From the NCBI GenBank assembly GCA_947588845.1, contig CANQAR010000003.1, forward strand, positions 1-64,000: 64,000 nt of DNA, read 5' to 3'. Positions 38,504 to 40,272 of the stretch are shown here, in pieces. The first letter of the stretch is position 1, and every line of letters starts with the position of its first letter. The notes below the pieces were generated by a model. It saw only the letters and a program-made list of their open reading frames with translations, was not told the origin of the DNA and searched no databases. The position numbers and the translations under genes are program-made. Source of the stretch: an uncultured Lachnospiraceae bacterium. GTDB lineage: Bacteria > Bacillota > Clostridia > Lachnospirales > Lachnospiraceae.

Positions 38504-38710
38504 ATGAAGGAAGGAATCCATCCGAAGTATTATCAGGCAACGGTGACATGCAACTGCGGCAATACTTTTGTAACGGGCTCTACAAAGAAGGATATCCACG
38601 TGGAAGTCTGCTCAAAATGTCATTCATTCTACACAGGCCAGCAGAAATCTGTGGCAGCCCGCGGACGTATCGATAAGTTCAACAGGAAGTACGGTCTTCA
38701 GCAGAAATAG
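38504..38710 (+). CDS. rpmE: ribosomal protein L31 (zinc-binding form)
   Basis: This 68-residue protein starts [20 protein letters not shown]. It has the two Cys pairs of the zinc-binding C+ form of L31: CNC near 16-18 and CSKC near 36-39. It is a large-subunit protein at the intersubunit bridge. The ATG at 38504 follows AGAGGTGAAAATC. It has its own promoter and leader, and a terminator follows its stop, so it is probably a separate transcription unit from rho. Confidence 0.95.
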
Positions 38711-38760
38711 TGTGGAAGCGCAGTATCGTCCCTGCCTGAAGGTCAGAGGACAGAATGTTA

Positions 38761-38792
38761 AGGATGGGATTGCAAAATCTCATCCTATTTTT
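38761..38792 (+). terminator. intrinsic terminator of rpmE
   Basis: AGGATGGGATT (38761-38771) pairs with AATCTCATCCT (38776-38786) with one mismatch, and a run of Ts follows (38788-38792). Confidence 0.85.
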
Positions 38793-38826
38793 TACTGTAT
38801 AAGTCCAGTCTCCGTGCAGAGACGGG

Positions 38827-39104
38827 AGGCAAGTTTACTTGCCAGACCGACTATGCACAGGAGACGACAACAGGTATGAGCAATACAGCAGCGTGAACAA
38901 AGTGAACGATGCGGCGCCGTGTGCCAGTGGCACACGTTTGGCGCCGACCGAAGCGGAGCGTAGACTTTGCGAATACCTGTAGGATTGCGGGGTGCTGGAC
39001 GTCCAGTGGACGTCCGTTCAGCACCGACCGAAGCGGAGCGAAGACTGCGAAAGCACGAAGCAATCCGTGGACTTATATTCATGGTGTTGCCCGCAGCGCG
39101 GGCA
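38827..39104. repeat. tandem structured units with covarying stems
   Basis: A hairpin GGCAAGTttACTTGCC (38827-38842) is followed by two units of one design. Unit 1 has outer stem ACAGGTAT/ATACCTGT (38870-38877, 38973-38980), inner stem GGCGCC plus GTGTGCC, loop AGT, then GGCACAC, a GTTT bulge and GGCGCC (38913-38945). Unit 2 has outer stem GGATTGC/GCAATCC (38982-38988, 39059-39065), inner stem GGTGCTG plus GACGTCC, loop AGT, GGACGTC, a CGTT bulge and CAGCACC (38991-39025). Both inner hairpins are followed by GACCGAAGCGGAGCG and an AGACT element. A family C hairpin GCCCGCagcGCGGGC ends the stretch (39089-39103). The rest of the 38711-39135 interval has no gene. Confidence 0.85.
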
Positions 39105-39135
39105 CAAAAGCTTATTACGAAATGGGGGATATTTT

Positions 39136-40272
39136 ATGAAACCATCCGGTATAGGAGGTCAGGCGGTGATCGAGGGTATCATGATGCGTAATGGGGACAG
39201 GTATGCGGTAGGTGTCAGAACGCCTGACGGGAAGATCGTTGTAGATCAGCAGGAATGTAAAGGCAGATTCCGGAACAAAAAGATCGCGAAACTTCCGATC
39301 ATCCGCGGGGTCATTAATTTTTTTGATTCCCTGGTGCTTGGTATGAAGACACTTATGTATTCGGCGTCTCTTTTTGCGGAGGAATCAGAGGAAGAGCGGA
39401 ACGAACGTGAGGCTCATGAACGGGAGAAGGCGTCGAAAAAAGCAGACAGGCTGCGGGCAAAGGGGAAGACGGCGGAGGCGGAAGAGGTTCTTAAAAAGTG
39501 TGAGGAAAAACTTGTGAAAGAGGCGGAGAAGATGGCGGCAGGAGGCGGAGATGACAGTGAAAATGATCTGCTCATGACGCTGACCGTTATTTTTTCCATC
39601 GTGGTTTCAGTCGCATTGTTTATGATGCTTCCGTATTTTATCTCGAGACTTCTCAGGCGGGTGATTACTTCTGAGATTGCCATACTGATCGCGGAGGGAT
39701 TTGTCCGCGTCCTGATCTTCATCGGGTATCTGGCGGCGATTTCCAGAATGAAGGATATTCAGAGGACATTCATGTATCATGGCGCCGAGCACAAATGCAT
39801 CAACTGCATTGAGAACGGCATGGAACTGAAAGTGGAGAATGTCCGTCTCTGTTCGCGGGAACACAAACGGTGCGGAACCAGTTTTCTGTTCATCGTCATG
39901 TTCATCAGTATTGTGTTTATTATGATGTTCAGTATTCCGCTGTTTATGCTGTTTCATGTGAATACCGCATTCTGGCGGATTGTGCTGCGTCTGGCGCTGC
40001 TGCCGCTGATTGCCGGCGTATCCTATGAGTTTATCCGCCTTGCGGGAAGTTCGGATAGTCCTCTGGTCAATCTGCTGAGCAGGCCGGGTATGGCGATGCA
40101 GCATATGACGACAAAGGAACCGGATGATTCCATGATCGAGGTAGCGATTGCCGCTGTGGAGGCTGTTTTTGACTGGAGAAAGTTTTTGAATGAGCAGTAC
40201 GGGGCGCACTATGAGACAGCCGGGAGCGAAGCGGAGACGGCGGAGGCTCTTGACAAGACGAGAAGCGCGTGA
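39136..40272 (+). CDS. DUF1385 membrane protein (YqhQ family)
   Basis: This 378-residue protein opens with IGGQAVIEGIMMRNGDRYAV, the conserved DUF1385 start. It has a charged insertion at about 85-135 and four or so hydrophobic segments between about 150 and 310. Conserved histidines lie in YHGAEHKCI (near 215) and a Cys/His motif in LCSREHKRCGTSF. The enzymatic role is unknown. In Firmicutes this gene is often next to prmC and prfA, as here. The ATG at 39136 follows GGGGGA. Confidence 0.9.
   Translation: MKPSGIGGQAVIEGIMMRNGDRYAVGVRTPDGKIVVDQQECKGRFRNKKIAKLPIIRGVINFFDSLVLGMKTLMYSASLFAEESEEERNEREAHEREKASKKADRLRAKGKTAEAEEVLKKCEEKLVKEAEKMAAGGGDDSENDLLMTLTVIFSIVVSVALFMMLPYFISRLLRRVITSEIAILIAEGFVRVLIFIGYLAAISRMKDIQRTFMYHGAEHKCINCIENGMELKVENVRLCSREHKRCGTSFLFIVMFISIVFIMMFSIPLFMLFHVNTAFWRIVLRLALLPLIAGVSYEFIRLAGSSDSPLVNLLSRPGMAMQHMTTKEPDDSMIEVAIAAVEAVFDWRKFLNEQYGAHYETAGSEAETAEALDKTRSA

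Follow-up and report, generated by a model that had tools for sequence, protein, structure and literature searches.

Rickettsia palindromic elements (RPE) are mobile palindromes found both inside and outside coding genes, and the BOX elements of Streptococcus pneumoniae are structured repeats of modular build, where an element with an outer stem takes up an additional hairpin module. The TnpAREP system recognises, as single-stranded DNA, a hairpin that has a bulge and a tag at its foot (PMC8266576). The REP super-families carry GTAG and CGTC foot motifs, and RPE-4 and RPE-6 have been mapped to the CGTC repeats; the words Firmicutes and Clostridia do not occur in the text of that survey (PMC3733652). 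Clostridiales-1 RNA is a further described family, RF01699 (Weinberg et al. 2010, PMC2864571).

The 64,000-nucleotide stretch analysed here (the window) comes from a chromosome of Lachnospiraceae type and carries rho, rpmE, a DUF1385-like gene, prmC and prfA. Between rpmE and the DUF1385-like gene it holds two copies of a unit that resembles REPs in being a short high-copy palindrome with a bulge and an unpaired foot motif, in having families with different stems and in lying in genes in some copies. With a hairpin of 33 or 35 nt and 129 model matches in the source genome (5.06 Mb), it is small and abundant enough for a REP. However, its foot motif is GACCG, neither GTAG nor CGTC, it has a conserved 19-21-nt tail on the 3′ side, and it is often nested in other repeats. 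Moreover, a Y1 transposase flanked by the repeat, as in REPs with a RAYT, was not found, and several high-copy genomes are without Y1. Compared by properties, the unit is like RPEs in also occurring in coding genes, with at least one case in frame and open, but it is half their size, breaks or shifts the frame in four of five coding cases and belongs to a different phylum. Compared with BOX by description, it is likewise a hairpin module within an outer-stem element, although the module also stands by itself, in genes and in a wide range of hosts. Both inserted units lie outside the Rfam model of Clostridiales-1, and units occur independently of RF01699. REP/TnpAREP is the closest working analogy, with membership failing on the tag and on the Y1 transposase. 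The unit is a real and widespread palindromic mobile repeat, apparently undescribed, nested in a known and probably mobile Rfam element.

Two inserts in a Clostridiales-1 copy downstream of rpmE

Table 1. Features between rpmE and the DUF1385-like gene, in window positions
Feature	Position	Strand	Details
rpmE (ribosomal protein L31), upstream neighbour	38504..38710	+	translation; kept at orthologous loci
rpmE intrinsic terminator, AAGGATGGGATT..AATCTCATCCT and T run	38760..38793	+	sequence; Clostridiales-1 host starts directly behind
Host, Clostridiales-1 RNA (RF01699)	38801..39074	+	cmscan 26.5 bits as interrupted; same-genome and G067 copies
Host P1	38801-38806/39069-39074	+	
Host P2	38807-38865	+	
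Host P3	38870-38877/38973-38980	+	
Unit 1	38913..38966	+	inserted in host P3; model R1 84 bits, E 7.5e-18; missing in empty host L023
Unit 1 hairpin	38913-38945	+	33 nt, 6+7 bp, loop AGT, bulge GTTT
Unit 1 tail	38946-38966	+	21 nt, GACCGAAGCGGAGCGTAGACT
Host P4	38982-38988/39060-39066	+	
Unit 2	38991..39046	+	inserted in host P4; model R1 67.6 bits, E 1.2e-13; missing in empty host L023
Unit 2 hairpin	38991-39025	+	35 nt, 6+8 bp, loop AGT, bulge GTTC
Unit 2 tail	39026-39046	+	21 nt, GACCGAAGCGGAGCGAAGACT
Accessory hairpin at the 3′ side of the host repeat, GCCCGC-AGC-GCGGGC	39089..39103	+	sequence; G067 orthologue has one too
DUF1385-like gene, downstream neighbour	39136..40272	+	ORF; marker for orthologous loci

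The region between the two genes (38790-39110) folds strongly on the plus strand (z = -10.4), with none of 100 shuffles as good. The sequence-only reading had placed two adjacent structured units here (38870-38980 and 38982-39065), with different stems, an identical tail and no match to a named motif. The sequences, stem pairings and repeated tail are indeed present, and the inner hairpins and tails stand as the unit. The outer stems do not: they are P3 and P4 of RF01699. Similarly, the lack of a named motif holds for the unit itself, for which Rfam gave no family when the window was searched at the gathering threshold, but not for the outer stems. A permissive Rfam scan yielded one meaningful match, to Clostridiales-1, at 38852-39075 over the full-length model, scoring 26.5 bits against the family gathering threshold of 48. 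We attribute this low score to the two units interrupting P3 and P4. Uninterrupted copies in the same genome lie above the threshold (L031, 107 bits; L022, 98 bits; L023, 103 bits), and in alignment with them the window has an additional block in each of P3 and P4. Both L022 and L023 share 99% identity with the first 119 nt of the window copy.

Orthologous loci were found through the DUF1385-like gene, which was located in 45 of the 47 genomes of the genus. The locus exists in three states: with neither host nor units (G006), with the host alone (G067, where Clostridiales-1 scores 82 bits and the neighbour gene has 94% protein identity to that of the window), and with host and two units, as in the window. 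The rpmE terminator is kept in relatives both with and without the Clostridiales-1 element. At the same locus in another genome (G029, L258), Clostridiales-1 is partly tandem-duplicated, from P4 to the 3′ end.

The two window units, 54 and 56 bases long, have changed stems and share the AGT loop, the GTTY bulge and a GACCGAAGCGGAGCG-NAGAC tail. The family consensus reads GG-NNNN-(7 or 8 nt)-AGT-(7 or 8 nt)-GTTY-NNNN-CC followed by the tail GACCGAAGCGGAGCGNAGAC, with the loop mostly AGT and the 3′ arm carrying the 4-nt bulge. In 206/206 sampled copies, from a scan that selected for it, the hairpin is directly followed by GACCG, which reads CGGTC on the opposite strand, and the tail has GNAG at a depth of 15-18 nt. 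On the 5′ side the flank consists of target DNA and varies.

Clostridiales-1 itself has at least 44 matches in the source genome and is present in 43/47 genomes of the genus. Canonical copies (L383-L422) start with ATGATGCC and end with CATCAT, giving inverted ends ATGATG..CATCAT, and a flank match of at least 3 bp is seen in 11/24 of them, compared with 6% when flanks are permuted. Because canonical copies combine inverted ends with 3-bp target duplications, as MITEs do, RF01699 is probably itself mobile; this applies to the canonical copies, the AAGTCC subfamily of the window having different ends. This Rfam 'sRNA' family, listed as a candidate RNA, is a dispersed and probably mobile repeat that looks MITE-like. 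We found no description of this mobile, inverted-end character of canonical Clostridiales-1 in the literature. The position behind the rpmE terminator is not a rule for the family, since 6/39 copies lie behind terminators against a background of 5.5%, and the idea that Clostridiales-1 habitually follows terminators was rejected.

Junctions, interrupted genes and copy number of the unit

Comparison of filled sites with empty copies of the same host family gave exact junctions (a slash marks the joint): GATGC/GAATTGCG becomes GATGC-unit-TTGCG, and TTGCGG/GAGTGCG becomes TTGCGG-unit-TGCG. Three more junctions lie in unique or nearly unique DNA. In a PDDEXK_2-family gene, compared with two relatives, ATGGGAG/GAG/ATC becomes ATGGGAG-unit-ATC; the others are GCCGG/GAACATACGG, from comparison with L423, and GCAGA/GGTC/GCAGG in a 3′ remnant of tRNA-Pro(CGG). 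Whether in Clostridiales-1, in other repeats, inside other units or in unique DNA, filled/empty pairs show a discrete insert and no target duplication, and the edges of conservation of the unit coincide with the insertion junctions. The target is (R)G/GNN, with two to three target bases beginning with G replaced. Of 41 copies with unshared flanks, 37 have A or G at position -2 and none has T there, and 28 have G at position -1; the junctions differ by a base or two from site to site. Units are also nested in other units directly behind the hairpin (GGCGCC/GACC), and units of opposite orientation occur inside the hairpin of another (L079 at about 1376-1554, L309, L341 and L016).

Coding genes have been hit as well, in insertions that were read directly and compared with Pfam. 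One of five such cases is in frame and open, an AhpC/TSA peroxiredoxin gene in a Butyrivibrio MAG (L224 1618-2130, minus strand; Pfam). The DUF188 gene is broken at 69/72 of the 130 profile positions (L210; Pfam) and, like the PDDEXK_2 gene (L114) and an RlmD-like gene identified from its sequence (L206), gains one or more stops, whilst an ArsC-like gene (L195) is shifted in frame. Insertion into a live tRNA was considered and rejected, as L439 near 1431 holds the 3′ part of tRNA-Pro(CGG) alone and ARAGORN finds no gene there. Genome annotators should be prepared to meet units within genes, downstream of terminators and in the middle of RNA models.

A 15-mer of the tail has exact copies in the window at 38946-38960 and 39026-39040 and nowhere else; with up to three mismatches there are 6 matches, compared with a shuffle mean of 2.1. 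Genome-wide there are 15 exact copies, against 0 for the reversed control, and covariance model R1 was built from 15 copies. The search for further units that had been proposed from the sequence found them in plenty. In the source genome, that of a gut-type bacterium, the unit has dispersed to about 100 copies. Beyond it, the model finds 0-92 copies per genome in other sampled members of the genus and at least one match in 88/200 genomes sampled from the family, almost all of different genera. An exact 19-base pattern occurs in at least 118 stretches of GTDB contigs, mostly Lachnospiraceae, and the matches listed include the isolates Butyrivibrio sp. AC2005, Coprococcus comes MSK.16.63 and Oliverpabstia intestinalis. 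The exact tail pattern gave no matches in IMG/VR, where phage carriage was sought. Among the papers searched, none contained the tail sequence, nor did any on REP or MITE repeats of Lachnospiraceae come up. Although it apparently has no name, the mobile repeat is very common in this family, which is dominant among the gut Firmicutes.

Covariation and the competing explanations

That the stems change while pairing is kept, as the sequence-only reading proposed, proved to be true covariation. Across 101 aligned matches from the source genome, 95% of cells are paired, double changes occur in 13/15 pairs, and there are 174 double-change cells compared with 57 in shuffles, whilst slid controls collapse. 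These counts lean toward the model because the alignment was fitted to it; a small ungapped seed alignment agrees, with double changes in 10/15 pairs. The tail contains a two-pair mini-helix that likewise switches between A-U and G-C. Covariation alone need not mean RNA function, because mobile palindromes can produce it too. G-U and A-C mismatches in the units stand at 39:32, with no clear G-U excess, and the same asymmetry measure, applied as a gauge of RNA selection and itself weak, gives 20:6 for 35-nt units, 23:23 for 33-nt units and 32:26 for Clostridiales-1 on Rfam's own structure without P2. A ratio of 48:4 for Clostridiales-1 was discarded as circular, because RNAalifold had derived the structure from those very sequences. 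The results give no support to an RNA function of the unit. The earlier proposal of a selected RNA or DNA structure is to that extent unsupported: no sign of selection on an RNA was found, and the copying of a mobile palindrome accounts for the conservation.

We put at about three in four the probability that both units represent a short mobile palindrome, non-autonomous and REP/RPE-like, which forms a new family in Lachnospiraceae and would be moved in trans. This reading rests on the filled/empty junctions, the three states of the orthologous locus, the interrupted genes, the match between conservation edges and junctions, the copy numbers and the covariation above controls. Counting against it are the absence of a recurrent transposase beside units and of Y1 transposases in several high-copy genomes, the shared flanks of most units and the variation of the junctions. 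The hairpin might instead be a REP proper, moved as single-stranded DNA by an IS200/IS605-type Y1 (HUH) transposase (RAYT/TnpAREP), as for GTAG REPs, whose gene has disappeared from some genomes or was overlooked there. The bulge in the hairpin, the conserved motif at its foot, the many copies, the absence of target duplication and pairs in opposite orientation would all suit this (cf. PMC8266576, PMC3733652), as would the Y1_Tnp genes of the source genome. However, those genes belong to IS605-type elements whose ends differ and were rejected as the mobiliser, the foot tag is of neither REP type, and Y1_Tnp has no match in G030, G035, G031 and G012 (100% complete) despite 70, 55, 18 and 29 units, respectively; we regard this alternative as unlikely. 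The sequence-only reading had set a REP/RAYT match against its own proposal; a literal match is lacking on these same grounds of tag and transposase, but the unit does work like the REP class.

The strong covariation, tail mini-helix included, and the many units within Clostridiales-1 and other structured repeats would also be expected of a selected RNA module, that is, a protein- or RNA-binding domain of hairpin and tail acquired repeatedly by structured RNAs and kept for transcript function. Yet units of either orientation are found, some of them in coding genes and one in a tRNA remnant, their number ranges from 0 to 92 within one genus, and the G-U excess is not clear, albeit by a weak measure, which together leave such a module improbable. 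Lastly, the unit could have no mobility of its own and spread solely because the host repeats around it are amplified and recombine with one another. Among 273 sampled units, 225 have flanks common to other units, and near-identical amplifications of host plus unit are seen in G031, G095 and G263. Most units therefore reside in other dispersed repeats, and it is these hosts, not movement by the unit itself, that account for a large share of the copies. As the whole explanation, however, this is very improbable: 48 units have unshared flanks, several different unit positions occur within one host, and the insertions in coding genes already point to insertion in unique DNA.

For a mobile element moved in trans, the enzyme would read the folded single strand, with loop, bulge and tail as fixed contacts and the stem contributing shape alone, and would join it into exposed sites at RG/G. 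When 2588 ORFs within 800 bp of units were clustered, no transposase appeared among the protein families recurring beside them; the exact junctions make an enzyme search feasible. An integron attC site was rejected by inspection, the bulge plus outer arm reading GTTTAGC or GTTCAGC against GTTRRRY of the core boxes GTTRRRY and RYYYAAC, and no cassette arrays were seen. More specifically, and only tentatively, the units may form a previously undescribed class of mobile hairpins of about 54 nt in Lachnospiraceae, not moved by Y1/RAYT and integrated by a putative structure-reading enzyme that would replace a G-N-N trinucleotide. Such hairpins would often land close to the base of other hairpins or right at it, and in this way turn other repeats, among them the likewise mobile Clostridiales-1, into nested mosaics.

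Host repeats that carry units

Units that landed in dispersed repeats such as Clostridiales-1 would then have multiplied along with them. Behind the rpmE terminator of the window sits one such Clostridiales-1 repeat, holding two units, in P3 and P4. Besides Clostridiales-1, the hosts include a GCGAGCAAYGAG repeat, which carries the unit and, at L343-L353 of G095 and similar loci, immediately follows intrinsic terminators at unrelated places. In the source genome, a dispersed repeat TATAGCAAACGACAAAAATATTTGCCGTTTGCTATA-ACCCTCCGGG (L324-L328, L330, L335, L340) has the unit at a constant position. Units were also observed in the leaders of putative small hydrophobic-peptide loci, resembling type I toxin-antitoxin systems by sequence (L082 534, L105 1500, L112 716 and L113 1500). 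Finally, one locus (L342; G000:C17:30604-30869) contains four degenerate units in tandem, with a period of about 71 bp.
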